64,000 nt of DNA from positions 4,366,934 through 4,430,933 of the forward strand of contig NZ_LT575476.1 in the NCBI RefSeq assembly GCF_900086655.1, written 5' to 3'. The notes beneath the pieces are model-generated. The model was not told the DNA's origin. It was given only the letters and a program-made list of their open reading frames with translations, and did no database searches. Shown one piece after another: positions 1-61,880 of this stretch. The first letter of the stretch is position 1, and every line of letters starts with the position of its first letter. The position numbers and the translations under genes are program-made. The DNA comes from Paenibacillus tuaregi (GTDB lineage Bacteria > Bacillota > Bacilli > Paenibacillales > Paenibacillaceae).

Positions 1-306
1 ATGTCCATTATCCTCATGAGGAACCACAAGGTCCCCATTCTTGTAAGGTTTCAGGCTCTCCCACTTGTTAGCGGCGGTGCCTGCTCGTGTGTTGACCCAG
101 CCGATATATCCTCCTATCGACGGATTAGTGTTCCAAAGGCGCTGTTTCAACGGCCACTGCCCTGTTACAGGGACCGAATCCGCATACTCTTCAGCATGGT
201 CATCTATGGTCTGAAAATTTGATGCCAGATCCATGACGAATTGATAAAATTCATCATGATATAAATCAGGTATTTTTAACTGCAACCGCTTGGTTTCGTT
301 AGACAT
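1..306 (-). CDS. Phage tail/fibre-like protein, partial (N-terminal 102 residues)
   Basis: The frame is open from an ATG at 306 to the window edge, so the C-terminus is missing. The protein starts MSNETKRLQLKIPDLYHDEF and contains a Trp/Gly-rich stretch (GYIGWVNTRAGTAANKW) followed by a Gly-Asp-Leu-Val-Val strand, a pattern common in phage receptor-binding or baseplate-peripheral proteins. It follows the Dit-like gene by 16 bases behind an AAAGGAGTG ribosome site, so it belongs to the same late operon. Position after the tail-tip genes fits a fibre or baseplate component, but no family was recognised with certainty; a plain hypothetical phage protein is the alternative. Confidence 0.6.
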   Translation of the reverse strand, partial: MSNETKRLQLKIPDLYHDEFYQFVMDLASNFQTIDDHAEEYADSVPVTGQWPLKQRLWNTNPSIGGYIGWVNTRAGTAANKWESLKPYKNGDLVVPHEDNGH

Positions 307-322
307 CCAATCACTCCTTTCT

Positions 323-928
323 TTAGAGTTCAGCTAATTTGGTATTCGGCGGAATATCTGCAAGTTTGGGACGGACAGGATTTAGAATCAAGTATCCGTT
401 GCCATCTGTAGTCATAGCCGCCGAATTACCCGTTGTAAAGTCACTAATAGGTACATCTAGAGGCTTCTGATCCCACTTATATTCCCGCGATGTAAGCTGC
501 GGGGAATACGTATAGGGAGAATCACAGCGGAAAGTTAAGGTAATGTATCCCTGCCTAAGCCCGTTATGAACCAGATTGGGCTCATCTACAACCAACGCAT
601 AATAAATGCGCTCGGGATCACGTCCAATTTCGTTCGAGAAGAACAAGGGCTGATAATAAGTGTGCTCGGTTAACCAACGGGCAACCTCGTTCATCTTGGC
701 CGTATTCCATGAATCCTCAAAGGCAAAGGACACATTGAACTTTAACGGTGATTTCCGGATTCCCTGGAAATAAGGCCGGTCCCTGCCCCGTACGGACTCC
801 TCCAGAATCTCTCTGGACGCTGCAAGCGGCTCCTCCAGCATGCCCGAGCTCATATTCACGTTGAGAATGCCATAGTCGATAGAGCTTCTTCCCGCATAGG
901 AGAAAAAAAGCGATTCACGAATGGTCAT
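323..928 (-). CDS. Phage distal tail (Dit-like) protein
   Basis: A 201-residue protein starting MTIRESLFFSYAGRSS. It shows the usual layout of the Sipho_tail/Dit family: a short N-terminal strand with a Ser-Ser-x-x-Tyr-Gly turn (about residues 14-21), a segment with EESVRGRDRPYF (about 43-54) that corresponds to the GRxG region of Dit proteins, and a C-terminal half with aromatic strands ending near a Tyr-Thr-Tyr-Ser-Pro motif. Dit forms the hexameric hub joining tail tube to tip. I chose the ATG at 928 because a CACCTCC-complement ribosome site precedes it; the frame extends upstream to 976 without one. It lies after, not before, the Tal-like gene, which is the reverse of the common siphophage order. 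Confidence 0.7.
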   Translation of the reverse strand: MTIRESLFFSYAGRSSIDYGILNVNMSSGMLEEPLAASREILEESVRGRDRPYFQGIRKSPLKFNVSFAFEDSWNTAKMNEVARWLTEHTYYQPLFFSNEIGRDPERIYYALVVDEPNLVHNGLRQGYITLTFRCDSPYTYSPQLTSREYKWDQKPLDVPISDFTTGNSAAMTTDGNGYLILNPVRPKLADIPPNTKLAEL

Positions 929-977
929 GGTTAGTTTCACCTCCTTTATAGCTGTGTTAGCTGCTGGAAAATACAAA

Positions 978-999
978 AGAACCCCATATTCGGGGTTCT
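978..999 (-). terminator. Terminator-like hairpin after the PAAR-like gene
   Basis: On the minus strand an 8 bp perfect stem AGAACCCC/GGGGTTCT with a 6-base loop is followed by TTTTG. The first arm overlaps the TAG stop of the PAAR-like gene. It lies inside a run of same-strand tail genes, so it is either a partial terminator or an RNA-stability element. Confidence 0.55.
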
Positions 1000-1465
1000 A
1001 CATATTCACTAAAGCTTGACCATCAGCAAGTGTGGTCATATTACCCAAGCACGTTTTCACCGATGAGCCTTGGACAGCAATCAATTTTCCATTTAAGTAC
1101 ACCTTGCTGCTGTTTCCCGTTGTTATCTCGCCATTCCCACTTCCTGAAGTACCGGGGGATATATCGCGATACTGTACATCATAGCTGTTCGAGGGTACTG
1201 GTGGTGAAGCGACCCACTGCTCTGGTATGAGGTCCCCAACCACAGCAGCAGATACCCCGTTAACATATAGTTTTGAACTTGCCTGGACTCCCTGGCCTTT
1301 AATCAAGGCGTTGGTTCTTTCCGTACCATCCCAAACCCAAGCTGGTGGTATCGGGTTGCCCTCTGAATCAGTGTCTCCTCCAAAATATCTCCATCTTTCA
1401 TAAGTCACATATCCACTTTTGATAGAGTCAACAGTCTTGGCACCATTTAGCGCGATTTTTGCCAT
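998..1465 (-). CDS. PAAR-like tail-tip protein
   Basis: A 155-residue protein. Two segments resemble the PAAR repeat: SSKLYVNGVSAAVVGDL at about residues 62-78 and a second, GNGEITTGNSSKVYLNGK, at about 110-127 followed by a hydrophobic strand, Gly and a single Cys near the end. In known systems PAAR proteins cap the spike of contractile tails and type VI secretion tubes; related tip proteins occur in some long-tailed phages. The ATG at 1465 has an AAGGAAGG ribosome site. It sits 29 bases after the Tal-like gene and just before the Dit-like gene, which places it in the tail-tip block. The assignment rests on motif shape only, so a different tip protein is possible. Confidence 0.5.
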   Translation of the reverse strand: MAKIALNGAKTVDSIKSGYVTYERWRYFGGDTDSEGNPIPPAWVWDGTERTNALIKGQGVQASSKLYVNGVSAAVVGDLIPEQWVASPPVPSNSYDVQYRDISPGTSGSGNGEITTGNSSKVYLNGKLIAVQGSSVKTCLGNMTTLADGQALVNM

Positions 1466-1494
1466 TTCGATCCTTCCTTTGTTTCTGCTTCATA

Positions 1495-4400
1495 CTAACT
1501 GTTTACAAAATCGAATTGTACGGCATGGAAGATCATTTTCCCATCGGCAGTCATCTCAATATAGGCTCTGTCATTGCCGAATTTAGCGGGTCCGCCTTCA
1601 GCGAGAGCACTAATGTCTTTTCCAGTTAGCATTATTTTACCCGCCTCCGATTTCAGAGTAATCCCTGTATCTGCAAGATCAACACTGCGTTCTTTTCCGC
1701 TGTTATTCGTTGCATACGAGGTTTTGAACCCGCCGTCATACTTCCGCTCCTGGGCCCTGCCCCCACCGTTCGGTGAGCCGTCTCCAAGTCCAATCGTTCT
1801 GACCGGGTTGGCCGCATCCCCACTGCCGGAGAAGGTAATTTCTTGTTTCACTTTCTCATCCATCTCATACACAAGAACAGGCCATGCGGTTACATCGGTG
1901 GTCATCTGGCCCATTTGCTCCGCGGACATCCAGTATAGAGGCCTGCCGTCAGCCAATTTCTTCTGGGTGCCTGAGCCTTTCACTTTTCCGGTAATGAACT
2001 TAATGCTGTTCTTGTCAATACGTATGTAATTCGACCAGTCCGTAAGTGCCGTATTGGTTAATGTGGTCAACCTGCCAGAAGTCAGATTTGAGATGAACCC
2101 GTCTGCGCTGGTGAGCATGTTCGCCGTGATCAGTTCCGCATCAACAGCTCCCGCCCCAACCAGATCCCAGCGGTTCATATACAGCTTCTTCTTCTCAGAG
2201 TCCATTAACAACGTACTGTTCCCATCCGTGACCATAAGCTTCTTGAATTTGGCGGTTCCATCCATGGATATCGAAGCGGGCGCTTTCGAAAAGTCCTCAT
2301 GCCCTGCCCAGAACCCCTGGTTGGGGAACAGCTTAATTACATTTGGGTGCTTTCCTAAGGTGATATCTGAACCCGTAATATGACCGTCTTGGAACATGGA
2401 ATTCTTAATCTCAGCCGTGTCAGCAAATAATTTGCTCATCCATACGTTTCCGAGATAATCGGCATGGAACGGGGCCGCCGACCAGACTGACGATCCCAAG
2501 GCCAGACCATGTTTATCGATGGTGAAGACCTGGTCGTCCACTCCGGCCTTAACAAACAGATCGCCATCCAGTGAGGTACCGAAGGTTTTCTCTGCAATAC
2601 CATTTCGGATACGTTCAATAATGAACCCCTCATCCGCTGTCATTTTCACCTTATTCACAACGGTCTTGTCTGCACAATCCCCTGAAGCATACCGGTTCAG
2701 AAACATACCGAACGTATCCGGCCGCTCAGACAGCAAACCAAGCTTAACTACTTCCCGGCCGCATCTGTCGTCGATCATCAGCCTGGACCCTTCAATGGTG
2801 AAGACACCGGTCGTATCCCCGATAACGACACGCTGCCCAAGGATAATTTTACCTAGCACCATCTCCGCAATCGTCCCGTCGGGAGTCATAAGGGATTCAT
2901 AATTTAGCCCTCCTGAGCGAGTGACACCCAACGCCCCATGAGTAGCCCTCAGAAACCTGAGCGGATCATTCGGATCAATGATCGTCAGCCCTTTTCTGTC
3001 CAGGGTTACATATTCATTCGAGGCCATATTGATGTCATTGGTCACTTTATTCCAGAAGTTCTCGAACAGTCTGCTCATTTCAGACGAGTCCACGACGGCT
3101 TTTCCCCATTTAGTCTTGCTGGTGTCTACGGTTACGGAAGTGTTCTTGGCATCATTTAAGAACTTCTCGATCCGCTTCGTCTCATCATTTACACTTTTGG
3201 CATTGGATAAGGTCAGCTTGACACTAGAATTCGCATAATTGAAGTTAATTTCGGTAATGCGCGCGGTAACGTTGGTCTTGGTCGGCTCGTACTTGATGTT
3301 GATGTAATCACCAAGAACAAGTTTGTTCCAATTCAGCTGCTCCTCTACGATCTCCAGAAAATTTACAATGTCCATATCAATGGACAACTGCGGCTGCTGC
3401 AATTCCTTGAACTTCTCCAAGGCCGCTTTATAAAGATCGTGATCATCTATATACTTATCATCATTAAACTCCCGTTCAATGACAAAATAATTCAGTTCCT
3501 GCAGCTGCTCCTTTGTAAAGTTATTCCCTGCAAGCAGAAGGGTCTGAAGGGTTGTAATCTGCTCCTTAACCTGTTTAATAGACAGGTTCATATTATCGAT
3601 CTCAATTTGCTTAAGCCTGATCTGATTCTGCTTATTGTCCAAGCTGTACCGCTCAATAATCTCCGCGTCATTACGGTCATTCTCCAGCTCTTCCAGGCTA
3701 AGATTAGCTACCTGAATAAATACGCCCGTGCTGCCGCCGTTGATGGAAACCTGAATCGAGTCCAAGTTTTTCACCTTGCCAAGCAGAACCCATTGCCCGG
3801 ATACCGTAGGTTTATCCTCACCATTCAAGCTGACATGGACACCCAAATTCTGGTCTACCTTGATCATTACAGCGTAGGCATACGTCGGGTGTAACGTAAA
3901 TTCCCTTGAGCTTGAACCGCTGTGCGGATATTTCTCAAAGAACATCTTCCTGTCAAATTGCTGCGTAATCATCGTGTCCGTGACCACCGCTTCGTTGTTC
4001 TTCAGCTTGTTCATGTCCACTTCCAGAGCATTTAGCTTGGCCTCAAGCTTCTCAAGCTGGGCAAGGGCAGCTTGGAACACCCCTGACTTGGACTCAACAA
4101 GTTCCTCATAGTCCAGAAGGGCATGGCAAAGCGAGTCACTCATATGGTAGCTCGAAGTGAGAACCTGCCTGTTCGAGTCCCGCTGAAACGGGTACATGAA
4201 ATAACCAAAATTCTCAATGTAATTCTGGCCAGTAGGATTTACCCGCTGAATCCCCAGCCCATCCTTCCCGGACGGGGACAGCCGTGTAACCATCTGATCC
4301 GTCTGATAGGCCTGGTTCATGCTCTTCATATACTTTTTATGTGAAAAAGTAAGACCTCGATTCACGCCAGTTAGCTCTGGCTTCTGAAAACTTACGGTTT

Positions 4401-4959
4401 GCTTGTCCGTATCAAAAATTACGATCGCGTTATAGGTCTCTGCAACCGAATAGATAGCTTCCAGCACATTAGAAGATGGAAAGTCAAAAGCCCTGTAAGT
4501 AAGATCAAAGTCAGCGTCAATGTAATCGATCTCCCATACTGTGTTCGCAAGCAGATCGTTCAGCACTTGTCTGCAAAATTTGGACTCTACGCTGTAGCTG
4601 CGGACGGCTTTATCTGAGAGCAGGTGATAGGCTGCATTGCAGGTTACCATTCTCGTTTTTCCGGAATCCTTAACATCATCAGTAATGGAATTAATCACAT
4701 ACCAGTTGATTTTGCCGCCCTTTACTTCCTTAATCAGGTACCGCTCTTTAATCAAGTCAATATTCTTATTGCGTACTAACCGGTGGTGCTCATCCAAATC
4801 GTACGGTACAGAAAAAGTAAGCTCATTCACACCATTCAGTTTCACAGACAAGCTGTCATTATAAGCTTCGTTCAGCTTGGCGATAATCTCCCGGTTGGGC
4901 CTTGCCAAGAAATATTGAGGTTTTATTGGCCTGCGATTATAATCAAGTTCACCTAGAAT
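1495..4959 (-). CDS. Phage tail-associated (Tal/endopeptidase-like) protein, probable ATT start
   Basis: A protein of about 1,154 residues. The N-terminal ~370 residues have the character of the prophage endopeptidase-tail (Tal) family, which closes the tube below Dit; residues ~275-320 and ~420-480 are coiled coils, and the rest is rich in Gly/Asp strands like phage fibres and spikes. The reading frame is open to a TGA at 4963-4965. The first conventional start is a TTG at 4908 with no ribosome site. Upstream of it the frame encodes LGELDYNRRPIKPQYF, a segment that reads like genuine Tal N-terminus, and an ATT at 4957-4959 lies seven bases after a perfect GGAGGT. I therefore place the start at that ATT. 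Sequencing error or use of the TTG are the alternatives. Confidence 0.7.
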   Translation of the reverse strand: MLGELDYNRRPIKPQYFLARPNREIIAKLNEAYNDSLSVKLNGVNELTFSVPYDLDEHHRLVRNKNIDLIKERYLIKEVKGGKINWYVINSITDDVKDSGKTRMVTCNAAYHLLSDKAVRSYSVESKFCRQVLNDLLANTVWEIDYIDADFDLTYRAFDFPSSNVLEAIYSVAETYNAIVIFDTDKQTVSFQKPELTGVNRGLTFSHKKYMKSMNQAYQTDQMVTRLSPSGKDGLGIQRVNPTGQNYIENFGYFMYPFQRDSNRQVLTSSYHMSDSLCHALLDYEELVESKSGVFQAALAQLEKLEAKLNALEVDMNKLKNNEAVVTDTMITQQFDRKMFFEKYPHSGSSSREFTLHPTYAYAVMIKVDQNLGVHVSLNGEDKPTVSGQWVLLGKVKNLDSIQVSINGGSTGVFIQVANLSLEELENDRNDAEIIERYSLDNKQNQIRLKQIEIDNMNLSIKQVKEQITTLQTLLLAGNNFTKEQLQELNYFVIEREFNDDKYIDDHDLYKAALEKFKELQQPQLSIDMDIVNFLEIVEEQLNWNKLVLGDYINIKYEPTKTNVTARITEINFNYANSSVKLTLSNAKSVNDETKRIEKFLNDAKNTSVTVDTSKTKWGKAVVDSSEMSRLFENFWNKVTNDINMASNEYVTLDRKGLTIIDPNDPLRFLRATHGALGVTRSGGLNYESLMTPDGTIAEMVLGKIILGQRVVIGDTTGVFTIEGSRLMIDDRCGREVVKLGLLSERPDTFGMFLNRYASGDCADKTVVNKVKMTADEGFIIERIRNGIAEKTFGTSLDGDLFVKAGVDDQVFTIDKHGLALGSSVWSAAPFHADYLGNVWMSKLFADTAEIKNSMFQDGHITGSDITLGKHPNVIKLFPNQGFWAGHEDFSKAPASISMDGTAKFKKLMVTDGNSTLLMDSEKKKLYMNRWDLVGAGAVDAELITANMLTSADGFISNLTSGRLTTLTNTALTDWSNYIRIDKNSIKFITGKVKGSGTQKKLADGRPLYWMSAEQMGQMTTDVTAWPVLVYEMDEKVKQEITFSGSGDAANPVRTIGLGDGSPNGGGRAQERKYDGGFKTSYATNNSGKERSVDLADTGITLKSEAGKIMLTGKDISALAEGGPAKFGNDRAYIEMTADGKMIFHAVQFDFVNS

Positions 4960-4966
4960 AGGTCAC

Positions 4967-4972
4967 ACCTCC
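4967..4972 (-). promoter_or_regulatory. Ribosome binding site deciding an ATT start
   Basis: GGAGGT on the minus strand, seven bases before ATT at 4959-4957. A GTG that directly follows it is out of frame and soon meets TGA, and no ATG, GTG or TTG in the long frame lies at a usable distance. Confidence 0.6.
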
Positions 4973-4977
4973 AATAC

Positions 4978-5010
4978 AAAAAGAGAGAGGCCGTATTCTG
5001 ACCTCACTCT
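4978..5010 (-). terminator. Terminator-like hairpin after the tape measure gene
   Basis: Arms 5010-5002 and 4990-4982 pair over nine positions with one mismatch, closed by an 11-base loop and followed by five T on the minus strand. It begins at the stop codon of the tape measure gene and lies between two genes of one operon. Confidence 0.6.
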
Positions 5011-8000
5011 AAATGGTTCCTAATTTAATTTTGCTAGTAAAAGCTTCGCCAATCTTGTTCAAAATAGTCTTACCCGAGTCCATATCATTGGCCTGGATGA
5101 TGACCTGTTCAATCGTTACGCTGTTATCCGTAGAATAACTGCTCGGCTTCATCTCCAGCAGCTGGCCCCAATTCATGTTGCCCATAAACAAGCTTCTGGC
5201 AATACTAACGATCTCCAGCATTCTAGAGGTATCTGTCTGATTCAGGACTAACTCCTTATCGTGAGCAAGAAGGAATTTACCTCCCTTGCCAGCCTTATCC
5301 CCTGTATAACCGCCCGTCTCGGCGGAGAAGACATCTTTACCGTTCAGTTCCGCGAAACTGCCGTTAGGAAAGGATGGATGAGCCTCCCTAATCTTGTTAT
5401 TTGCTTTCCGCAATCGCTCGATTTCCGCTTTTATATTTGCTATCTCAGGATCCTTAGGATTTTTACGCCCTCTTTTGACAGCTTCTTGTGTTAGATCTTC
5501 AGCTTCTTTTTTATTCTTTAAATACTGCTCCCAAGCCGACTTAACATCATCGTTTTTCGTTGGCGAAGACGGTGAAGATGGAGAAGTTGGAGTACCTGTA
5601 GAAGGTGGTGTGTACCCGGACGGAAAAGCGTCTTCTTGCGAGAAGTCACCACTCGCAAACTTTTTTAACATGTTCAGACTTTTCTCTAGGGCATTGTTCA
5701 AATTATTTAATCCTTTTTCTGATTCGATAACATTTTGATTAAGCCAAGCATGGTAAGTATCAAACCCTACTTTCAGTTCAGCTAAAGTATCCTGGACCAC
5801 TTTGCTATCCTGACTAAGGAGCCCCTGTTTCAAACGATAGAAATTTTGTTCATTCTCGAGTATATCCTTGTAGTACTGTTCAACCTCCCTTCTCTTGAGA
5901 TCGATCGCATCCATTTCATCCTTGTTGCGTTTGTCCTCGTCCCTGCTAATTTTGTCAGTATACTTCTTCCGGTCATCCAGCTGATCCTGCAGCCCTTGCT
6001 TACGCATTTCTCTTTCGCGGTCCAGCTTATATTTATCGATTTCCTCGTTCTTGGCATTTAATTGATCCCCAAGATCTTTCCGCTTGGCCTTCGCCTCCAT
6101 GGAATTATCCAAAGCCAGCACATTGAGCTTATCAATAATCGTCTGCCGTTCTTTAAGCTTCTTGTTGAGCTCGGTCTCATAATCAGCAGAGGCATTATTC
6201 CGGTCCATCACCTTCATCTGTTTATTGATGGAATCCTCAAACGCTCTATTTTCATCTTCTAGATTTTTCTTGAATTCCTCGTGCCGCTTATCTTCTTTCT
6301 CTTTCCTCTCATCCAGAGCCTTATTCTCTAGTTCCTGCTGCTTCTGGTACATGTTCTTGTAGGCTTCAATGATTTTGTCCGCTGCGTCCTCGCGAAGCTT
6401 TTGCTGCTGTTCCAAGTTGGACTTGATCGCAGCTTCGTTATCGTAATAGGCTCTGGTTTCTGCCTGGAGCTGCTTGGCTAACTCCTCTTTTTGTTCAGCG
6501 GTAAGCTTATCACTGGCCAGAAGTTCATTGAGCACCGCAATCTTGTCTTTATGCAGCTGCTGTTCTTCCCTAAGAATCGGAGTTTGAGATTGAAGAACTT
6601 CCATATACTCTTTAGAGCCTTCTTTAAGCAAACCAAGCTTTGCATTCGTATTATCGAATTGGTTCTTAACCTTTTCAATTTTTTGGTCATACTCGGCAAG
6701 ATTACTCTTAACGACGTTGAATCTCTTCTCTTGAACTTGCTGCTCCAGTTCCCACCATTTCGCACTGTTTTCGGACTTTTGCTTATCATACTCGCCTGAA
6801 GTGATCTTGTTTTCTTTGAGTAATTGGTCGATTCTTTTGTTTTGATTCTCAACCTCTTTTTGCTGAGCCTGAAGATAGGAGGATTGAAGCATCTCCTCTT
6901 TGCGCCATTCCGCACTTGACCCGGACATCCGGGATTGCCTGCCTTGGGATTTTTGAATAAGAGGGTTGTAACTGTCTATCTTATTCTGGGACATGAGAAT
7001 CACGTCATCAATAATTTCAAGACTCTTCTTGTAAATATCCGTATCAAGCTGAACCGCTTTGTGTTCCGCATTTTCCTTGGCATCGGCTAATTCTTTTGTC
7101 TTATCACCAGTAGATACCGCTTTTTTTGTTTTTGCATCCACTTCTTTTTCTATCAGTTCAGAAGGATTCTTGGCCCCTGCTTCATACAAGCTCTTTTGCT
7201 CTTTCAATAGCTTTAATTCGTCTGCTAATGATTGCTGATACTCCACTGAGCCTTTTTTCATTTTGGTTCTTTTGTTCAGCAGTTTCTCTTGCTCGGAATC
7301 TATTTGTTTTAAACGCTCTAATGTGGCTGTCAGAATTTTTACAGTTTCTTTATAAGTATCATTTGCCGCTTTTTGCGATGATTTTGCAGTAGCATTTGCT
7401 TTAGGAATTCCTTGACTGATATTATTTACGGTCTGTCTAAGAAATTTAAAATAGTTTTCAATTTCCTCGATATTGACTATTTGACCGCCTAGATCAACTT
7501 GGAGCTCATTAAGTACTTTCTGCTTAGTAGTATCATCTTCATCGCTCAGCAGTTTATTTTTCCACTTGCTTGGAGTCCCCTTCGCGGCTTCTTCCTCAAC
7601 TCTACGAAGTGCTTCCTTGGCCCCAGCTAAATTAGTAACGACTCCAAATTCCAGACCATAAGCAGACAGCCGTTTCAGGGATGAATTAAGTACAATGAAT
7701 GCGTTCTCCTGCTCTTTAGCCATATCCTGCTCAAAGAAATCCTGTTTCTCTTTCCTAAGATCAACAAGCGCTTTCTTCGAAATAATCCAGCCATCTTTGA
7801 CTTGAGTGATACTATTGGATAGATGCGGATACTTAGCAACCAAGTGGTTGACGGTCTCTTCATTCAGAGCGTGTCCTTGGTTCATGTCATTCAATGCAGA
7901 GTTGATATCTTTAATTTCAGCTGAGGTATTCTTGAAGCTTTCCTGCAACCGCTCCTGGGATTTTGTAAAATCAAAGGTTTCCTTGAACGAGTCTCTAACC

Positions 8001-10750: not shown

Positions 10751-10810
10751 TTGGATCACTCCCTTTCCATGATCACAAAAGAAGCGATCCGATGACCGCC
10801 CCTATCGTTT

Positions 10811-10975
10811 TTATTCTGTTAACCTCTGGTTATTTGCTTCTTTATCGTCATTCAATTCCAGCATCTTGGCCAGCTCATTTTTAATGCCAACCATAGCCTC
10901 ACATTCCTGGAACCCCGTCGTTGGGACCCGGTTAAGAAAAATCAAAATATTTTTGATCATAGAATTACTGAGCAT
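10811..10975 (-). CDS. Small tail protein, possible second half of a frameshifted tail chaperone
   Basis: A 54-residue ORF whose ATG overlaps the last 11 bases of the preceding chaperone gene and has a strong GGAGGGG ribosome site. In siphophages and myophages this slot, between tail tube and tape measure, usually holds two overlapping ORFs (lambda G and T) joined by programmed frameshifting. Here the second ORF is in the frame reached by +1 or -2 slippage, and the frames share only a short window between a TAG and the TAA stop, which contains the run GGGGAAAAC. Independent coupled translation from its own ATG is equally possible. The protein is otherwise unrecognised. Confidence 0.55.
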   Translation of the reverse strand: MLSNSMIKNILIFLNRVPTTGFQECEAMVGIKNELAKMLELNDDKEANNQRLTE

Positions 10976-11471
10976 CGTTTTCCCCTCCTACATGATCTTC
11001 AGACGTATTGCTGACGGATTGGGCCAATGCGAGCTCACCCATCACAGAACTGATGTTTTTAGAGGTTAGTTTCATTTTCTCTTCGATCTTACGCATTTGC
11101 TCTGGTTGGAAATAGGGGAACACCTCGCCCATAATACCCAGATCAAGAAGATTGTTGGCCAGTTTAATTAAATCTGTTGGACGTGCTTTTCTTGGAATTG
11201 GGAGATTGGTGAACTCCCTGAGGATTAGCACATTTAACAAAACAACCGTGTCCTTAACCAGTTCAGTCTCAGGCTCTACGGTTGCCTTTAAATCTTGAAG
11301 CAGTTGAATATAGTCAATAACCACATTATCAATTAACGATTCTCTAAAATGGGTATGCACCTCAACCTCATACTTATCATTAAGAACAGAAATCTTTGTT
11401 CGTGAATTCAATTTACTGCTTAGCTTATTTAGGCCTGCTGCTGTTAATTTTTTGGCAGTTGGTGTACTCAT
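10965..11471 (-). CDS. Probable phage tail assembly chaperone
   Basis: A 168-residue mainly helical protein starting MSTPTAKKLTAAGLNKLSSK. The N-terminal ~45 residues are basic, followed by a strand and helical bundle with YIQLLQDLKATVEPETEL. I assign it from position: it is immediately downstream of the tail tube gene and upstream of the tape measure gene, the conserved place for the gpG-like chaperone that coats the tape measure protein. The start ATG at 11471 has GGGAG nine bases upstream; the frame is open further to 11582 but overlaps a hairpin there. No sequence motif proves the family. Confidence 0.6.
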   Translation of the reverse strand: MSTPTAKKLTAAGLNKLSSKLNSRTKISVLNDKYEVEVHTHFRESLIDNVVIDYIQLLQDLKATVEPETELVKDTVVLLNVLILREFTNLPIPRKARPTDLIKLANNLLDLGIMGEVFPYFQPEQMRKIEEKMKLTSKNISSVMGELALAQSVSNTSEDHVGGENDAQ

Positions 11472-11565
11472 GTTTATTTCTCCCTTTTCTCTAAAAGTTG
11501 GTGTCCTTAAGACACTTGTTACAGTGCTCTTGCTTAAGAAAACTCTAAGAAATGTCCGAATGAAG

Positions 11566-11591
11566 AAGAGACAGGCTCTCACCTGTCTCTT
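11566..11591 (-). terminator. Hairpin between tail tube and chaperone genes
   Basis: A perfect 10 bp stem AAGAGACAGG/CCTGTCTCTT with a six-base loop, 10 bases after the tail tube stop codon. The following sequence is CTTCATTC, a poor T-tract, so it could be an mRNA-stability or processing hairpin that keeps tail tube transcript abundant rather than a full terminator. Confidence 0.5.
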
Positions 11592-11601
11592 AAGCAGCTA
11601 T

Positions 11602-12402
11602 TTAGGCAATGCTATCCTTGTCATATACCGTCATGGTGTACAACTCGGTACCATCGGCTGGTTTGAGGATATCCATCGGAATATCAAACGCCGAAGGATC
11701 ACCCGTTGCCGCCATTTGCAGCTTCCAGCCGTCTTCCATCTTCGCTTTGTTGATGACGATTTGGGCAGCGTAGTCCTTCTCATCAAGCGTATTGCGGACC
11801 AGGCAGTCTAGGACCACTTTGAAGGTTCCAGCGAACTTGTCCGAGGAGACCGTAATCGTCTTGGCATCCGCACCAGATTTCGCTTGATAGTACGCAACCA
11901 CTTTAGCACCGTCGGCAAGATCGCCTGCGTTGAAGGCGAGCTGTTTAGCGGTAAGCGTGTATTTGCCCGCAGTTGCAGGTCCTGTTGCGAGGAAAGTGAT
12001 TTCTTCCCCATGTGTGCCATCCTCATTCAGCTTGTACACACTGATAAGACCGTTTGCAGCATTCAGTGGAGTAAAGGCCACAGAAGCCTTATTTCCAACC
12101 ACGGTTAGAACTTCTCTTTGATACACGTTTGCCGCGCCCTTCTTGATCTCGTTTCCGGTCATCATCGCGATAACCTCGTTGGTGAATACCGCATCCTGCA
12201 AGGTCACTTTACCGCCGCGGTTGCCGGAGAAGCCAACGATATTTGCGTTCCCGCGTCCGCCTTTGACATATACCGTTTCCGCTGTATTCTCAAGACCCGA
12301 GGTCTTCAGGTTTGTGAGTTGAACCTTGGCCTTTCCAGTTGCCAGATCATAGAATGTTGCTAGTGCTACTTCACGTACTGCCCAAATGTTTGGTGTTGTC
12401 AT
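11602..12402 (-). CDS. Phage major tail tube protein
   Basis: A 266-residue, beta-rich, Gly/Thr/Ala-rich protein without membrane segments, beginning MTTPNIWAVREVALATFYDL. Features that fit tail tube proteins are the repeated strand pattern, a long central region resembling an Ig-like insertion (about residues 95-160) and a C-terminal segment ending DGTELYTMTVYDKDS. Tube proteins are the most abundant tail subunit and polymerise around the tape measure. Position directly before the chaperone supports the call. The ATG at 12402 has AGGAG ten bases upstream. No tail sheath gene accompanies it, which points to a non-contractile tail. Confidence 0.75.
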   Translation of the reverse strand: MTTPNIWAVREVALATFYDLATGKAKVQLTNLKTSGLENTAETVYVKGGRGNANIVGFSGNRGGKVTLQDAVFTNEVIAMMTGNEIKKGAANVYQREVLTVVGNKASVAFTPLNAANGLISVYKLNEDGTHGEEITFLATGPATAGKYTLTAKQLAFNAGDLADGAKVVAYYQAKSGADAKTITVSSDKFAGTFKVVLDCLVRNTLDEKDYAAQIVINKAKMEDGWKLQMAATGDPSAFDIPMDILKPADGTELYTMTVYDKDSIA

Positions 12403-12422
12403 AATAAAACCACTCCTATAAA

Positions 12423-13136
12423 TTAGTTAATTTTGTTGGCCCAATGGATATCGGACATGTTTATGTTCTTGCTATCAATCACTCCAGCGTAAAGGCCGGA
12501 CAAAGTATAATGGTAGTTGTCGATATTATTCGTGGTATGAAAGCCCGCATAGATTTGATAGATATTCAGCTCAAAGATTTCGATCAGGCTCAGACCATTC
12601 GGCTTCCAAGCCAGCCCGTTCACCATACTGGCCAGGTCCATCTTTTCCTTTCGCTTGGGCTCCTTGGTCCGGTTCCTGAGAATTTTGTCTATGAGCTCCT
12701 GGGCTTTCGAATTGCCTGGCTTGAATTCAGGCTCGGACTCTAATTTCAAATGGTTGGCGATCTTCAGCATCTTCTGAAAATCATCAAAATTTGAATGATC
12801 AAGTTCCCCAGACGGGAACTGTAGATGAACCTTGTGTTCATCCCCGGATAGAGAGGGTTCCTCCCTAAACAAGAGGCGCAGCGCCGAGAAGGCATCCGTT
12901 CTGAAGGATTCGTCATGATAACAGTTGGCATAGAAAATATCGAAGTTGGTCACCCGTTCATCGATCTCTTTTCCTAATAAAGATTTATCAATCAGCAGAA
13001 GAGATAACCCATGATAGTAGACCGACATCCCGATCTCCGCAATTTTCTTAAAAGAAGGCATATGTACTGCTAGATTACCGCTAAGTGGAATAGGAAGATT
13101 GGCTAACAGCTTTAATTTAACGTCTTCAATATTCAT
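12423..13136 (-). CDS. Unknown phage protein upstream of the tail tube gene
   Basis: A 237-residue soluble protein beginning MNIEDVKLKLLANLPIPLSG. I do not recognise its family. It has a mixed alpha/beta N-terminal half, a Lys/Glu-rich linker near residues 145-170 and a Tyr/Asn-rich C-terminal part. Its ATG overlaps the stop codon of a 24-residue ORF (ATGA), and it ends 20 bases before the tail tube gene, so it is co-expressed with the tail. The slot before the tail tube often holds a tail terminator or connector; here that is only positional inference. Confidence 0.55.
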   Translation of the reverse strand: MNIEDVKLKLLANLPIPLSGNLAVHMPSFKKIAEIGMSVYYHGLSLLLIDKSLLGKEIDERVTNFDIFYANCYHDESFRTDAFSALRLLFREEPSLSGDEHKVHLQFPSGELDHSNFDDFQKMLKIANHLKLESEPEFKPGNSKAQELIDKILRNRTKEPKRKEKMDLASMVNGLAWKPNGLSLIEIFELNIYQIYAGFHTTNNIDNYHYTLSGLYAGVIDSKNINMSDIHWANKIN

Positions 13137-13207
13137 CGTTTCTTCTCTGCCTCATTAGTGAACTCCGATCTGTAACATTTAAAATCATTTCTAATTTCTA
13201 GTTTCAT
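13133..13207 (-). CDS. Very small ORF (24 residues) coupled to the next phage gene
   Basis: Starts MKLEIRNDFKCYRSEF and ends with TGA inside the ATGA overlap of the following gene. Its ATG lies inside the stop region of the 33-residue ORF upstream, behind AAGGTGAT. The unbroken chain of overlaps and ribosome sites is the only support; it may act merely as a coupling leader. Confidence 0.35.
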   Translation of the reverse strand: MKLEIRNDFKCYRSEFTNEAEKKR

Positions 13208-13305
13208 TTCATGCTAATCACCTTACCCCTCTGTGTGAAATGGATCGGTATTTTCCAACGCTTCAACCAACTGTATTTCCTTCTCTGATCTCGGATAGCG
13301 TGCAT
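13204..13305 (-). CDS. Very small basic ORF (33 residues), first of the tail operon
   Basis: Starts MHAIRDQRRKYSWLKRWK, strongly basic, with an excellent GGGAGGAG ribosome site five bases before the ATG. It is the first ORF after the candidate promoter motif at 13364-13378 and its end overlaps the following 24-residue ORF. No function can be given. Confidence 0.45.
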   Translation of the reverse strand: MHAIRDQRRKYSWLKRWKIPIHFTQRGKVISMK

Positions 13306-13363
13306 GTTCTCCTCCCTTAAACAACTTTATCCCTTTTCCAACAAACCCTCTATTATCAATACA

Positions 13364-13378
13364 TATATTTACTTTATA
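13364..13378 (-). promoter_or_regulatory. 15-base motif, candidate phage promoter element (copy 1)
   Basis: On the minus strand TATAAAGTAAATATA lies about 60 bases before the first ORF of the tail operon. The identical 15 bases occur upstream of the polymerase gene at 16116-16130. The surrounding 13306-13447 holds no gene. Confidence 0.4.
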
Positions 13379-13447
13379 AAATTTTTGTCCTCTCTACTCT
13401 GCCTGAGAACCCTTGTGCCACAAGGGATACAGCAATTCGGCCAATCG

Positions 13448-16027
13448 TTACACGGTTTTCTTCCTGTACTTCTGAACTCGTTCTCTTGTTTTCTCTCTTT
13501 GCACCTCTACCCGGCAGGAATCACAATATTTCAATCGCTGTCCGCTCTCCTCAATCCTTGCCCCACATCTCTGACACTGTGCATCCGTACGAAGGTTTCT
13601 TTTGATATTATCTACAATAATATCCCCGAAGCATGACCATAACGTCGTTTTGTAGCTGCTTTGTTTGTGTACATACAAATATTCAACCAGGATATCCACC
13701 ACGTGGCGCGGGTCTCCTCCATGTTGGATCAATTTCTCCCGGATAAGCCGGTACATGTATTGATTATCTCCGGTCCAATCCCCATTCATCTGAACGACTT
13801 CCATGAACCTCTTTTTCTGATCTTGATTCGTATATTCATTTATAACAATCGTCTTCAGGTCTTCATTATCCATGCTGCCGCCGCTCATCAGTATTCTGTA
13901 GTCAAAATATCCGAGATTAGCCGCATTAAAGTTAAGCCTCACTTTAGGAATGAGCTGCCCAAGGCGGTTCACCACACTTTCGTTCCTTTCCTCAACGTGA
14001 CCGTCTGTCTTGTCTTTAACATAAGTGAAGAAATACGGAACCTTATTCTTGGTATAGGATTGAATCTGCTTCGCCACCTGCTTGGGGCGTTCAGGCTTGT
14101 ACAATGTTTTGGCATAATCTATCGTAAAATTATTTTCCATACACAGGATCTTAACAATTTCCAAGTCAGCCTGCCCACTATTCCAAATCTTTGAGATATT
14201 GTTGCTGATCGTTCCTATATTCCCGCCGCTATACGCGGCCTCCAAGCCTTTATAAATCGATTCGCTGCTAATCAGCTCAGGCTCCGCCTTTCTCATCTCA
14301 TAATACAGCGGATAAATACCCTCCATATTGCGTTTTGCCACCTCAACCAGCTTCTTCTCCCGGCAGACCAGCGCCTTATCCCCATCGTTATCGAACTGCA
14401 GGATTTTACTGATTGGATCGTGACAGCTGGTATAGATTCCTTTGCTCACGAACCACCGGCCGATGTCCTTATTCACTTTATTTGCCCTCACGGCGTGTTC
14501 TCTGTACAGATGCGGGCTTCTTAAGCAATCCAACGGCTCCCCGTCCGGATATAAGGAACAACTGACCTCCTGATCAGCAAGCAAGCCCCGAGGTTCACCT
14601 TCCCCTAGAACCAGCTGCTCACAGAATGCATACAGATCTGGAACGATGAAGGTATATTTCCCGTCAATATAGATTTTGCCGCCCTTCGCATTATTCGTTA
14701 TCTTCTTCTTGACCTGCTTTAAAATCTCCTTGCTGTATGTATCCCTCAAGAGCTCGGGATAATGCTCCAATGCCTGCTGATAATAGTTTTTGTTAGAGTT
14801 CCACTCACCTACGCCGAGCACGCCCAACATCGTTTCTTTCCGGGACCCTATATTTTGGATCGTATCTATCGTTTTGGCAGCCAGATCCTTAAGTTCATCG
14901 TCGGTGATATCCGTAAGCGTCTGCAGCATCTGGTAATTCAGCTTGGCATTCTTAATCTTGTCCTCTTCTTCATTACACTTAGCAGCTTCACAGCCGTAGC
15001 GCGTAAATTTCTCCTTATAATCCTCCCAGCTGTTGTAATACGCCCACATCTTAAACTGGCTTTTTGTGAAAATCACTTCGATTTTCTCCTTGAGAATATC
15101 ATGCTCCACCCCATAAATATCTGTGACCCTTCCGTACTTCGCATGCTTCGCTTCCCGGTTATGTTCCCGAATGAACTTATCGAATGGAAAAGGAACCAGC
15201 AGCCCCTTAACCCACGGCAGCCGGACCATCATGGATTTAACGCTTTTTCTGGGCAGGATCATGCCACAACCATCTGTATGGACAATAGGAAACTCCATAT
15301 CTTGTCTGGTAATTTCATAGGTTCTATCATCGATAAAATCCACGGTGGTTTGGACCGGGGATACGAAATCATCCACTACAATAGACTTCTGAATATCAAA
15401 CTCAGGCCATGGTTCTGTCGCTGTATTACACAAAGCCAGATAAGCCAGATACTTATTAATATTCACCCCACCCCGCTGGTTAATTTGCTCTGGATCAAGA
15501 CCACACATCAGCGTAGAGTGATGCCTTTCCCATACACTTTCCTTAATGAACATCGTCTTTTTAGTTCTAATCTGCCCGGCGCTCGCAGTAAAACAAACAT
15601 ATTTATGCTTCTCATAAATGAAACCATACTTGATTAAATCCTCAAGCACCTTAAAGTAATACGTTTCTACAATAAAAAGATCCTTTGTAATTTCATCCTG
15701 ATTAATATTCAGCGTTCGGGTCAAAAAAGAGTCAAACACCGCGATCAGATTGGAATCTTTAACGGATTCCTTCCTGAGCTCCCGGGTTGACGTATTGGAC
15801 TGCAGAAGTATTTTGAACTCTTCCTTGAGTGTGTCATATTGCTGGGTCAAAAGCTTCAACTTCCCGGAGGTCATCTGCTCAGCAGCCTCCTGCTCCATCT
15901 TGTTCTGTTTCTGTTTCAAAGCGGATATTTCAAGCTTCAGCCCTCTAAGCTTCGTTTGAATTTGCACCTCTTCATCTGTGTAGAAGCACGAGGTATCCAG
16001 CGAATACATCATGATTTGTTTTTCCAA
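13448..16027 (-). CDS. YonO-like single-chain DNA-dependent RNA polymerase
   Basis: An 859-residue protein. At residues 546-550 it has DNDGD, preceded by a hydrophobic ILQF and followed by KALV; this matches the Asp-x-Asp-Gly-Asp metal-binding motif of the second double-psi beta-barrel in YonO of SPbeta and in the QDE-1/RDR polymerases. The N-terminal ~70 residues form a coiled coil, and a C-terminal zinc ribbon (CxxC at about 817-820 and again at about 833-836) is followed by a basic tail. YonO is known as a single-subunit polymerase related to the cellular multisubunit enzyme that serves SPbeta late genes, so transcription of the adjacent tail operon is the likely job. The gene starts with TTG at 16027 after a GGGGGG run; MMYSL six codons in is an alternative start. 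The family call rests on the catalytic motif, size and context. Confidence 0.72.
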   Translation of the reverse strand: MEKQIMMYSLDTSCFYTDEEVQIQTKLRGLKLEISALKQKQNKMEQEAAEQMTSGKLKLLTQQYDTLKEEFKILLQSNTSTRELRKESVKDSNLIAVFDSFLTRTLNINQDEITKDLFIVETYYFKVLEDLIKYGFIYEKHKYVCFTASAGQIRTKKTMFIKESVWERHHSTLMCGLDPEQINQRGGVNINKYLAYLALCNTATEPWPEFDIQKSIVVDDFVSPVQTTVDFIDDRTYEITRQDMEFPIVHTDGCGMILPRKSVKSMMVRLPWVKGLLVPFPFDKFIREHNREAKHAKYGRVTDIYGVEHDILKEKIEVIFTKSQFKMWAYYNSWEDYKEKFTRYGCEAAKCNEEEDKIKNAKLNYQMLQTLTDITDDELKDLAAKTIDTIQNIGSRKETMLGVLGVGEWNSNKNYYQQALEHYPELLRDTYSKEILKQVKKKITNNAKGGKIYIDGKYTFIVPDLYAFCEQLVLGEGEPRGLLADQEVSCSLYPDGEPLDCLRSPHLYREHAVRANKVNKDIGRWFVSKGIYTSCHDPISKILQFDNDGDKALVCREKKLVEVAKRNMEGIYPLYYEMRKAEPELISSESIYKGLEAAYSGGNIGTISNNISKIWNSGQADLEIVKILCMENNFTIDYAKTLYKPERPKQVAKQIQSYTKNKVPYFFTYVKDKTDGHVEERNESVVNRLGQLIPKVRLNFNAANLGYFDYRILMSGGSMDNEDLKTIVINEYTNQDQKKRFMEVVQMNGDWTGDNQYMYRLIREKLIQHGGDPRHVVDILVEYLYVHKQSSYKTTLWSCFGDIIVDNIKRNLRTDAQCQRCGARIEESGQRLKYCDSCRVEVQREKTRERVQKYRKKTV

Positions 16028-16092
16028 ATTAATAATAATCCCCCCATAAATATATAAAGAAAATATAATAATGAACCTTATACTATAATATC

Positions 16093-16110
16093 ATAATTCA
16101 AATGAATTAT
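16093..16110. promoter_or_regulatory. Perfect palindrome upstream of the polymerase gene, candidate operator
   Basis: ATAATTCA-AA-TGAATTAT, an 8 bp perfect inverted repeat with a two-base centre, in very AT-rich DNA about 65 bases upstream of the polymerase start. No regulator gene is adjacent in the window. Confidence 0.4.
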
Positions 16111-16115
16111 ATAAT

Positions 16116-16130
16116 TATATTTACTTTATA
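16116..16130 (-). promoter_or_regulatory. 15-base motif, candidate phage promoter element (copy 2)
   Basis: TATAAAGTAAATATA on the minus strand, about 90 bases upstream of the polymerase gene and identical to the copy in front of the tail operon. If it is a promoter for the phage polymerase it would give positive autoregulation. Confidence 0.4.
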
Positions 16131-16281
16131 TTCAGGTTTATTTCCCTTGTTTTGCTAACTGCTGCATGAAATGTTTCAGCATAGAGGATGCTAATAACGC
16201 CCCTATTTAACATTCTTTGGAACGGCACCTTTAACCTGGTTTAGTCATATGTTAATCTGCGTCCCCTATAAGACATTTTTC

Positions 16282-16317: not shown

Positions 16318-16570
16318 GTGTTACAAGCTGAAATGCAAAGAGGTGAAATTCAGAAATGGAAGGCGACCCGAGTAGTCCGCAGACCTATGCCCCTGCAATA
16401 CAACTGCATAGAAAACAGATCAGCAGGACAACTGCGGGAGGAAGGGGCTCTTTCGTTTCCCGGTGCCGTTACTGCCTCATGCGGTAATTAGCCGGCTGCT
16501 GATTTTTTTCTATGCTCTTTAATAAGAGCATACCCCTTGTGAACCATGGGGTGAAGGAGTGAGAAATCAG
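16318..16570 (+). ncRNA. Structured corA leader with intrinsic terminator (candidate riboswitch or attenuator)
   Basis: Between the promoter and the corA start the RNA can form several hairpins: CTATGC/GCATAG near 16386-16411, GCAG-GACAA-CTGC at about 16423-16435, and a multibranch structure closed by ATCAGCAG (16419-16426) with CTGCTGAT (16496-16503) and seven T. The small GCAG/CTGC hairpin and the closing stem share bases and cannot coexist, the classic arrangement of a switch. A further 8 bp hairpin (16512-16531) and a CCCC/GGGG hairpin precede the ribosome site. It does not match the M-box sequence as I know it. Ligand and class are unknown. Confidence 0.45.
16419..16509 (+). terminator. 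Intrinsic terminator inside the corA leader
   Basis: Eight base pairs ATCAGCAG/CTGCTGAT enclosing two smaller hairpins (TTACTGC/GCGGTAA is one) and followed by seven T at 16503-16509, about 60 bases before the corA start. Confidence 0.6.
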
Positions 16571-17506
16571 ATGAAAATTCGCCATGTTAACGCGGGTATC
16601 TTTACTGTGGTGGAGGACCTGGAAACAACCCTGACGCCGCCGGCGGAAGGATTTTACTGGATCGATGCGGACGCCGAGGATCTGGCGCTGCTGCAGCCGG
16701 CTTTTGGGCTGCATGATCTGGCCGTGGAGGACTCCCTGACCGAAGAAGAGCAGCGTCCGAAGATTGAAATTTATGACAACCATTATTTTATTGTTGTGAA
16801 CAGCATCCGTTTTGATGACGAGGAAATTTTCCTGCGTGCGCTGAGCATGTTCCTGGGACGGCATTATATTATTACAGTAACAAAGCAGAAGATCAACGAG
16901 CTCCGGGCCATCAAGCCCATTCTGTGGGAACAGGAGGTTAACGAACCTGACCGTTTCCTGTACCTGCTCATTGACCTTGTTGTTGATAATTATTTCCTGG
17001 TCGGTGACCGGATCGAAGACAAGATTGAGAGGCTTGAGGAGGACATCCTGGTTCATACCAAGCGGTCGCACTTAAGTGAGATTATCGGTCTGAGAAGTGA
17101 GATCCTGTGGCTGAAGAAGATGCTCGGTCCGCAGAAGGAAGTTATTAATATCCTGAACAAGAAGGACCTTCGCCTAATCGATGACCAGCTGCAGAAATAC
17201 TTCAGCGACATTTATGAAAATGCCGTGAAGATTTCCGAGAACTTTGATACCTTCCGGGAACTGATGGGCAACTTACGAGAAGCCTATCAGTCCAGTATCG
17301 CCAACCGCGCGAATGAGATCATGCGGGTGTTCACCGCGATCACCACGATCTTCATCCCGCTAACCCTAATTACCGGAATTTACGGAATGAACTTTACTAA
17401 TATGCCGGAGCTGCACAGCCGTTATGGTTATTTCATTGTGCTCGGCATTATGGCCGCGCTGGGCCTGGGCATGTTCTATATTTTCCGCAAAAAAGACTGG
17501 ATTTGA
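16571..17506 (+). CDS. corA: Magnesium/cobalt transporter CorA
   Basis: A 311-residue CorA family protein. The signature YGMNF sits at the end of the first of two C-terminal membrane helices (PLTLITGIYGMNF, then FIVLGIMAALGLGMFYIF) and the protein ends with the basic KKDWI tail. The N-terminal ~240 residues form the cytoplasmic funnel domain with a long acidic helix (RIEDKIERLEEDILVH). CorA is a pentameric channel for Mg2+ and also passes Co2+ or Ni2+. The ATG at 16571 has AAGGAG 11 bases upstream; a GTG at 16559 in frame is too close to it. The gene stands alone between its long leader and a strong terminator, so leader-mediated control by a metal is plausible. Confidence 0.95.
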   Translation: MKIRHVNAGIFTVVEDLETTLTPPAEGFYWIDADAEDLALLQPAFGLHDLAVEDSLTEEEQRPKIEIYDNHYFIVVNSIRFDDEEIFLRALSMFLGRHYIITVTKQKINELRAIKPILWEQEVNEPDRFLYLLIDLVVDNYFLVGDRIEDKIERLEEDILVHTKRSHLSEIIGLRSEILWLKKMLGPQKEVINILNKKDLRLIDDQLQKYFSDIYENAVKISENFDTFRELMGNLREAYQSSIANRANEIMRVFTAITTIFIPLTLITGIYGMNFTNMPELHSRYGYFIVLGIMAALGLGMFYIFRKKDWI

Positions 17507-61203: not shown

Positions 61204-61880
61204 GCCGAGCCATGGTCGCGCAGCGGACAAGTCAGGCCAGCTCGCACCTCTTACCTCACCCAACACAAGGGTGAGCTGCGAGTTAGACGTACTGTCCTCT
61301 CCCTGCACCTTCCCAGCGGAGGGCCGGATTCGGCTTTCAAAAGCGTCAGCGCTCGCCTTTGCCACCGGATTTCTACCGCTAACTAGCGGCTTCAATCCGG
61401 AAATCCGGGGGCAACAGCGATCAGAAAGCCGAGCCGAGCCCGCAGCGGACAGCAAGCACTTCCTACCTCACCCTCCCTAAGGGGTGAGCTAAGGGGCCAG
61501 ACGTGCTGCAATCTCCCTGCTCACTCCCAGCGGAGGGCCGGATTCGGCTTTCAGAAGCGTCAGCGGTCGCCTTTGCCACCGGATTTCTACCGCTAACTAG
61601 CCGCTTCAATCCGGGAAATCCGGGGGCAACAGCGATCAGAAAGCCGAGCCGAGCCCGCAGCGAACAGCAAACACTTCCTACCTCACCCCCTAAGGGGTGA
61701 GCTAAGGGACCAGACGTGCTGCAATCTCCCTGCTCACTCCCAGCGGAGGGCCGGATTCGGCTTTCGGAAGCGTCAGCGGTCGCCTTTGCCCCCGGATTTC
61801 TACCGCTACTAGCGGCTTCAATCCGGAAATCCGGGGGCAACAGCGATCAGAAAGCCGAGCCGAGCCCGCAGCGGACAGTG
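61204..61880. repeat. Tandem repeat, about three units of ~213 bp
   Basis: The anchor GCCGAGCC starts near 61204, 61428, 61642 and 61853 (steps of 224, 214 and 211). Units contain the recurring GGGCCGGATTCGGCTTTC and ATCCGGAAATCCGGGGGCAA. The second and third units are nearly identical, the first is more diverged. Open frames through it are by-products of the repeat and GC content. No gene is supported in 61187-61905. Confidence 0.8.

Follow-up and report, generated by a model that had tools for sequence, protein, structure and literature searches.

A headless phage-tail element led by a YonO-like RNA polymerase in Paenibacillus tuaregi, probably a non-contractile tailocin of SPbeta-like ancestry

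The window analysed in this study is a stretch of 64,000 nucleotides (nt) from the 5.67-Mb genome of Paenibacillus tuaregi (contig C4, positions 4366934-4430933; a window position is the C4 position minus 4366933). Its left end carries one half of a phage-derived element in which a gene for a single-chain, YonO-like RNA polymerase is followed by the genes of a phage tail. The window edge splits this element in two, and the other half, recovered by fetching 80 kb leftward, reaches to approximately C4:4350915. The features of the element are as follows, with their matches in brackets.

Window 1..16270, minus strand: in-window half of the headless element (similarity to empty metA-corA sites)
Window 13448..16027, minus strand: YonO-like single-chain RNA polymerase, 859 amino acids (aa) (phrog_8308, E 6e-284; RdRP Pfam, E 9.1e-12)
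Window 12423..13136, minus strand: YomV-like protein, 237 aa (PHROG match, phrog_4051)
Window 11602..12402, minus strand: major tail tube protein, YomU-like (PHROG match, phrog_2729, and predicted fold)
Window 10965..11582, minus strand: YomO-cluster protein (phrog_7383, E 2e-16)
Window 5009..10759, minus strand: tape measure, 1916 aa (TIGR01760, E 3.5e-23; phrog_4211, E 3e-199; PhageMin_Tail, E 1.3e-21)
Window 1495..4908, minus strand: tail-tip protein, YomG-like (YOMG_N, E 8e-30; Prophage_tail, E 5e-23; phrog_6211 'minor tail protein')
Window 998..1465, minus strand: PAAR-motif protein (PF05488, E 3.5e-6, 27.6 bits against a cut-off of 27)
Window 323..976, minus strand: distal tail protein (Dit), YomH-like (phrog_33, E 2.6e-20; YomH tblastn match)
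Window 1..306, minus strand: 212-aa protein cut by the window edge, its gene taking in window 1-306 and L002:19601-20000 (phrog_20658 'head decoration', E 5e-85)
C4:4352815-4353270: holin (Phage_holin_4_1, E 1.4e-30)
C4:4351908-4352840: amidase (Amidase_2, E 1.1e-12)

The polymerase and tail open reading frames (ORFs) were confirmed at the positions given by a first-pass annotation of the window, all on the minus strand and in the order polymerase, YomV-like protein, tail tube, YomO-cluster protein, tape measure, tip, PAAR protein and Dit. That annotation had the polymerase leading directly into the tube gene; the single-strand run holds, but the 237-aa YomV-like gene and, between it and the polymerase gene, a 311-nt spacer at window 13137-13447 intervene. 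The polymerase is 49.6% identical to SPbeta YonO across 98% of the query, and its translation contains DNDGD, a form of the DxDGD motif of the YonO-like family. While the PHROG label of phrog_2729 is 'head and packaging', the predicted fold of the 11602..12402 product is that of the SPR tail tube, which identifies it as a tail tube; the SPR tube itself was solved in complexes with the DSR2 defence protein, which it triggers. No PDB match at E 0.001 was found for the predicted fold of the YomV-like protein (AlphaFold2, pLDDT 76), and the YomO-cluster protein would, by its position, be the tail-assembly chaperone.

Beyond Dit the minus strand continues with a run of tail and fibre-type proteins, the holin and the amidase, after which come a plus-strand 185-aa ORF and metA. 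Four fibre-type proteins have F5/8 type C similarity, which passes the Pfam cut-off in one and falls short of it in three; another has PHROGs in common with these four, and a sixth has CBM96; five related ones are arrayed at L002:8174-15584, an arrangement expected to diversify targets. All structural and lysis ORFs are open. The lysis cassette (Phage_holin_4_1 and Amidase_2) is part of the element, and the tail set (tube, tape measure, Dit and tip) comes without a sheath family among the matches, as in F-type, that is non-contractile, tailocins.

The whole element spans approximately C4:4350915-4383203 and is inserted between two chromosomal genes.

Window 16559..17506, plus strand: flanking chromosomal corA (PF01544, E 9e-73)
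Far left end, beyond the plus-strand 185-aa ORF: flanking metA (homoserine O-succinyltransferase)

All 38 other genomes searched within the genus have these two genes adjacent, 0.63 to 2.62 kb apart; in P. tuaregi the distance is 32.8 kb. The main similarity to seven empty metA-corA sites stops at C4:4350913-4350935 and restarts at C4:4383204-4383237, thus the insert measures 32.1 to 32.3 kb, its left edge being uncertain by about 140 nt because of an extra patch of 32-35 nt at C4:4351020-4351054 that matches two of the seven empty sites. No att-like repeats were found, the longest word common to both junctions being 8 nt long and inverted, and no recombinase or integrase occurred among the profile matches of the insert proteins. 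The first-pass annotation had described a tail run with no capsid, portal, terminase, protease or integrase gene after the polymerase and with chromosomal corA on its other side, and both statements are borne out: profile searches found no such genes between polymerase and tail, and no terminase, portal, protease or major capsid gene in the left extension or the rest of the element. The left extension, which it had proposed to examine, leads through fibre-type proteins, holin and amidase to metA, and no intact capsid, portal or terminase gene was found in it. By these searches the element is free of capsid, portal, terminase, replication and integrase genes, with one protein labelled 'head decoration' remaining. 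It lacks the marks of an SPbeta-like prophage, which has head and packaging genes in the interval from yonO to the tail genes, an integrase and att repeats.

A head could in principle be supplied by another element of the cell, the locus then being a satellite or one half of a split phage. A probable repressor module elsewhere in the genome, described below, means that splitting may have occurred, and the 'head decoration' family protein would also fit, but the element has its own lysis genes, the phrog_2 terminase was not found in the genome (11 of 14 controls were positive), and neither was the SPbeta-type terminase, the genome-wide search for head genes covering the terminase. We regard this explanation as very improbable.

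The same layout was sought in relatives. A YonO-like polymerase was detected at E 1e-50 or better in 23 of 394 genomes of the family, and all 23 loci were examined with their flanks. Nine clearly lack a head and have a siphophage-type tail (G000, the present element, and G015, G034, G218, G100, G049, G066, G367 and G278), G379 is probably headless (its tube was not found), eight are headed and siphophage-type, four have contractile tails and G363 is mixed. The polymerase is the first gene in every headless locus examined. SPbeta head and packaging clusters (yonG, the terminase yonF, yonD) and one beside yomM are present in nine of nine headed loci, SPbeta included, and in none of ten headless ones; over whole genomes, the SPbeta-type terminase profile separates the two groups in the same way (8/8 headed, 0/10 headless). 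Among 20 loci of named genomes, most of them the same genomes as in the family set, ten are headless (one call, L059, being doubtful), eight headed, one too short and one neither; the headless ones include Paenibacillus oralis (L042), P. turicensis (L048), P. massiliensis subsp. panacisoli (L044), P. sabuli (L047), P. oenotherae (L058), Cohnella sp. GbtcB17 (L043) and Metasolibacillus meyeri (L054). For IMG/VR, the best 80 of 116 loci comprise 64 headed, two headless (both already counted), seven neither and seven short. The elements of G015, G034 and G367 share one site, between ppiB (lysA and sigF beyond) and rib genes, named by Pfam for G015 and by cluster membership for G034 and G367; G015 additionally has some 11 kb of other genes on the rib side.

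Several other loci of this polymerase class were encountered. Contractile-type prophages in G341, G356, G069 and G230 (L092-L097, L106-L111), classified by eye and with heads read by eye from the G341 ORFs, are also led by a YonO-like polymerase. At G363:C6 ~148854-151484 (L112-L114) two YonO-like ORFs, one very divergent, point apart with tail genes beyond each. Distant YonO-like polymerases of ~960 aa with 27% identity occur in four genomes of the genus (L008-L011, in G010, G008, G036 and G004), and in L181, L191-L203 and phages H3, H11 and H20 the polymerase matches are fragmented or lengthened by inserts, with an annotated GIY-YIG nuclease under the match in one phage.

Since complete related prophages exist in eight genomes, the element is taken to derive from SPbeta-like phages. 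How often heads were lost is less clear. In each of the two polymerase trees used for the topology tests below, the headless loci need five changes. The placement of G218 within a headed group had support of 98/93 and 98/89 in the first tree built, of 32 rows, but 90/75 in the second. A single origin of all eleven headless loci was rejected by the approximately unbiased (AU) test (27 rows, p 0.0003), a rejection due to the inclusion of Metasolibacillus L054; with L054 left out (26 rows), a single origin of the ten Paenibacillaceae loci was not rejected (p 0.082). Both AU-tested trees were built without G363 and its second ORF, G379, L049, L051, L056, L057, L059 and all IMG/VR loci, and exchange of the polymerase gene could mislead them. 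The tail genes are mosaic: the P. tuaregi tube is 75% identical to that of headed G223 and 28% to that of headless G015, its tip protein 63% identical to that of G015, and its YomV-like protein 59% identical to that of G223.

The headless pair G049/G066, of a single genus and including Cohnella sp. GbtcB17, allowed selection to be estimated. The ratio of non-synonymous to synonymous divergence (dN/dS) rises from 0.013 (tube) through 0.09 (polymerase) and 0.16 (tape measure) to 0.34 (tip), and the dS of polymerase, tape measure, Dit and tip (0.34-0.72) lies within the range of the flanking genes (thrS 0.46, Tex 0.41, a TetR-type gene 0.61, an oxidoreductase 0.90). Because dS falls within this range and dN/dS is low, the natural reading of these sequences is that the headless element of this pair was inherited and kept. 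The dS of the YomV-like and tube genes is only 0.11-0.12, as after recombination.

These data bear on a further alternative, that of a recently decayed SPbeta-like prophage in which the genes for head and replication went in one large deletion, leaving tail genes that are still undisrupted yet functionless. Complete relatives with tail genes as close as those of G223, the presence of the element at metA-corA in a single genome and the retained 'head decoration' family member would all suit decay. On the other hand, every structural and lysis ORF is open, recombinase and att-like repeats are missing, the layout occurs in at least nine genomes at several sites, the G049/G066 element is under purifying selection with dS in the range of its flanks, and LexA-type boxes near the polymerase (see below) are found in headless loci only. 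A tidy lysis-bearing module in at least nine genomes, with a site shared by three and purifying selection in one pair, makes the layout unlike simple decay, which we consider improbable. The first-pass annotation had set its proposal of a domesticated, headless, non-contractile tail against descent by simple decay from a complete prophage in relatives. Its proposal is supported by a tail, fibre and lysis module that recurs without head genes; as to decay, complete relatives do exist in the eight genomes, but the layout fits it poorly.

The sequences around the polymerase gene suggest how the tail genes may be controlled, the following being the relevant features.

Window 13313..13321, minus strand: TTTAAGGGA, core of the candidate YonO promoter, ahead of the first tail gene
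Window 16116..16130, minus strand: TATAAAGTAAATATA, candidate operator, ~90 nt before the polymerase gene
Window 13364..13378, minus strand: second TATAAAGTAAATATA copy, ~70 nt past the polymerase stop
C4:4351138-4351151: LexA box CGAACATATGTTCT, ~70 nt before the plus-strand 185-aa ORF
L217:7383-11027 (C4:2202383-2206027): genes for MrpR, a YopQ/DndB-like protein, a 151-aa protein and a helix-turn-helix (HTH) protein, between ppiB and ribD

Forrest and colleagues (PMC5467207) reported that 37 SPbeta genes need YonO and that this enzyme transcribes the structural and lysis genes of the late phase; they placed the start of the late operon upstream of yonK and left the promoter open. In nine of ten headless loci, G379 being the one without it, the coding strand carries the motif T[TC]TAAGGG[AG] between the polymerase stop, 59 to 159 nt away, and the first tail gene; its wider form is TAATnGTCTTTAAGGGRRAC. 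A profile built from 26 loci carrying the exact core, applied with the tested locus left out, ranks the motif top in 36 and among the top three in 49 of 98 non-redundant loci of all kinds, and the P. tuaregi copy second in 54 kb on both strands. At the same place SPbeta and its close kin have TAATCGTCATAAGGGAGAC, offset by one base from the profile. The GGGA of the motif is reminiscent of the start regions of T7-type polymerases. Terminators between polymerase and motif, seen in 2 of 12 headless and 3 of 5 other loci, were not supported as a general rule.

Alternatively, the tail operon of a tailocin could be read by the host RNA polymerase from a promoter of its own after the polymerase gene, with the YonO-like gene a passenger. 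In the spacer the 15-bp word TATAAAGTAAATATA overlaps a weak sigma-70-like site (window 13380-13352), although such sites are not above chance, and LexA-type boxes stand at or after the polymerase stop in G049, G066, G367 and G278. A passenger would hardly be expected to show the strong purifying selection of the polymerase (dN/dS 0.09), its first place in every headless locus or a conserved phage-like GGGA motif after it, and the late genes of SPbeta require YonO. This alternative is therefore unlikely, and dependence of tail expression on the polymerase may be inferred by analogy with SPbeta (PMC5467207) and from the conserved motif.

LexA-type boxes (GAAC[AG]NN[CT]GTT[CT]) were sought in the 400 nt ahead of the polymerase and around its stop, in an interval running from -50 to +250 nt. 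They occur in 6 of 13 headless loci (G015, G034, G049, G066, G367 and G278; the 13 take in the doubtful G379, L054 and L059) and in none of 64 headed, four contractile, seven unclassified and one mixed loci (headless against headed, Fisher p 7e-6, uncorrected for kinship, G049 and G066 being near copies). In G034 and G367 GAAC-N4-GTTC words overlap the GGGA of the candidate promoter, thus LexA might sit directly on it. In the P. tuaregi region L002 a LexA box with at most one mismatch is expected 0.18 times; two strand matches were found, a number reached in 4 of 200 shuffles. The 185-aa ORF beside this box had no relative but itself among 5.8 billion proteins.

MrpR, the master repressor of SPbeta, binds ahead of yonP (PMC10516654), which directly precedes yonO. 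Genes for MrpR and a YopQ-like protein (DndB family) stand beside the polymerase in G015, G218, L058, L054 and the mixed G363, and MrpR alone in G100; at E 1e-8 neither was found in the stretches of headed loci searched, most of which extend 10 kb upstream. Boxes without MrpR occur in five headless loci, MrpR without a box in four, both in G015, and neither, at that position, in G000, G379 and L059. In P. tuaregi the MrpR and YopQ-like genes are ~2.17 Mb away from the polymerase gene, at a site bounded exactly by ppiB and ribD that has no polymerase or tail genes and, in L217, no LexA boxes; three relatives carry the whole element at this site, the order in G015 being ppiB, element, YopQ, MrpR, other genes, ribD. 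A 13-bp word, ATAAAGTAAATAT, has three copies in the whole P. tuaregi genome (reversed control, none), one on either side of the polymerase gene and one 57 nt past mrpR, with the common 15-mer TATAAAGTAAATATA. From this distribution MrpR is suggested to bind TATAAAGTAAATATA as its operator. Exact copies of the 15-bp word also stand close to mrpR in G218 and, in headed G223, a long way upstream of the polymerase; no exact copy lies at the polymerase of the MrpR-bearing headless G015, G218, G100 and L058. A natural reading is that the weapon moved to metA-corA, or was lost and regained there, while the repressor stayed behind and acts in trans.

Taken together, the element is probably an F-type tailocin that arose from SPbeta-like phages and kept their late polymerase as its switch, and the same judgement extends to the loss of head, packaging, replication and integration genes from the ancestor. 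Its probable use is the killing of rivals among other bacteria. The anatomy is firmly established and the comparison is broad; killing, use of the motif by the polymerase and both repressor links are inferred. In unstressed cells the distant MrpR-type repressor would silence the polymerase gene and the tail promoter through TATAAAGTAAATATA. DNA damage would lift repression, perhaps via the orphan 185-aa gene, putatively under LexA control, at the element's far end and, in several relatives, via the LexA-type boxes at the polymerase gene itself. Host RNA polymerase would then produce the YonO-like polymerase, which may initiate at TAATnGTCTTTAAGGGRRAC past its own gene and transcribe through the tube, tape measure, tip, fibre and lysis genes, whereupon headless tails would assemble. 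With holin and amidase lysing the cell, the tails would then kill those sensitive relatives that the fibre-type proteins select.

A wider account is tentative, and we would put it slightly below an even chance. It holds that SPbeta-like phages became tailocins in Paenibacillaceae and at least once in another family, each keeping a single-chain polymerase akin to the multisubunit enzymes as a dedicated amplifier; that several lineages passed from MrpR to LexA control; that in P. tuaregi repressor and weapon are ~2.17 Mb apart and joined by the 15-bp operator word; and that TAATnGTCTTTAAGGGRRAC is the promoter of this polymerase class. The odds of this account are set lower because one origin within Paenibacillaceae was not rejected.

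Several observations weigh against these interpretations. The element occupies metA-corA in 1 of 39 genomes of the genus, thus the evidence of selection comes from the G049/G066 pair and not from the P. tuaregi copy itself. The 212-aa protein of the fibre region belongs by its match to a 'head decoration' family, and weaker matches of the tip protein and one fibre are labelled 'head and packaging'. In the SPbeta locus the motif comes no higher than 30th by profile score, and the best SPbeta copy, its first G at 61230 of SPBc2, precedes yonN, with a weaker copy in the gap between yonN and yonK, whereas the published start site is upstream of yonK (the published position, 2225998 in B. subtilis 168, could not be placed in SPBc2 coordinates). 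Sigma-70-like sites around the polymerase number 10 against 9.0 in shuffles and are not enriched. The P. tuaregi LexA box is far from the polymerase and adjoins an orphan gene; over whole regions there are 14 boxes in ten headless loci against 9 in one shuffle, and 1 in eight headed, thus the case for LexA rests on box position, as counts hardly exceed chance. An identity of TATAAAGTAAATATA with the word of the MrpR-bound SPbeta promoters was rejected, since the two words differ.

Should the tailocin reading hold, a bacterial weapon would be driven by a private polymerase of the YonO class, a class said to have diverged from multisubunit RNA polymerases earlier than the last universal ancestor, and the loci together would offer a testable answer to the promoter question left open (PMC5467207). 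The headed and headless relatives would represent natural transitions from phage to weapon in which the change of control can be traced. No literature pairing YonO with a tailocin was found in the collection searched, and no description of a tailocin with a YonO-like polymerase among the top-ranked matches of the literature searched. The F-type tailocin is an already known kind; what is new is the YonO-like polymerase and the change of control.

Among known systems, the SPbeta-like phages (Spbetavirus; SPBc2, phi3T, SPR) share with the element the YonO polymerase, tail tube, tape measure, YomG/YomH/YomF-type proteins, a similar word after yonO and the MrpR/YopQ regulators, but the element has no terminase, portal, major capsid, replication or integrase genes and has other fibres and lysis genes. 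YonO of SPbeta likewise belongs to the single-chain polymerase family and heads a late module, yet it serves the whole phage including the head genes, whereas here only tail and lysis genes follow (PMC5467207). Listeria monocins (F-type, ftb cluster), for which SOS-inducing conditions have been reported, also combine a headless non-contractile tail module with their own holin and lysin (PMC7076858); as to homology with the ftb cluster, the tube fold alone was compared. F-pyocins, which are akin to lambda (PMC12090994), and rhizoviticin are F-type headless tails, as the present element would be, but they have other phage ancestors, and no YonO-like polymerase is mentioned in the material covered. 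In clostridial R-type tailocins 'RNA polymerase' and 'sigma factor' appear without detail among the annotated regulatory-module functions (PMC10538166), thus the idea of a private polymerase is not without precedent; these particles differ in being contractile and in carrying an integrase or resolvase and replication genes, the kind and role of their polymerase being unstated there, and in P. tuaregi the polymerase is of the YonO class and heads a non-contractile tail.

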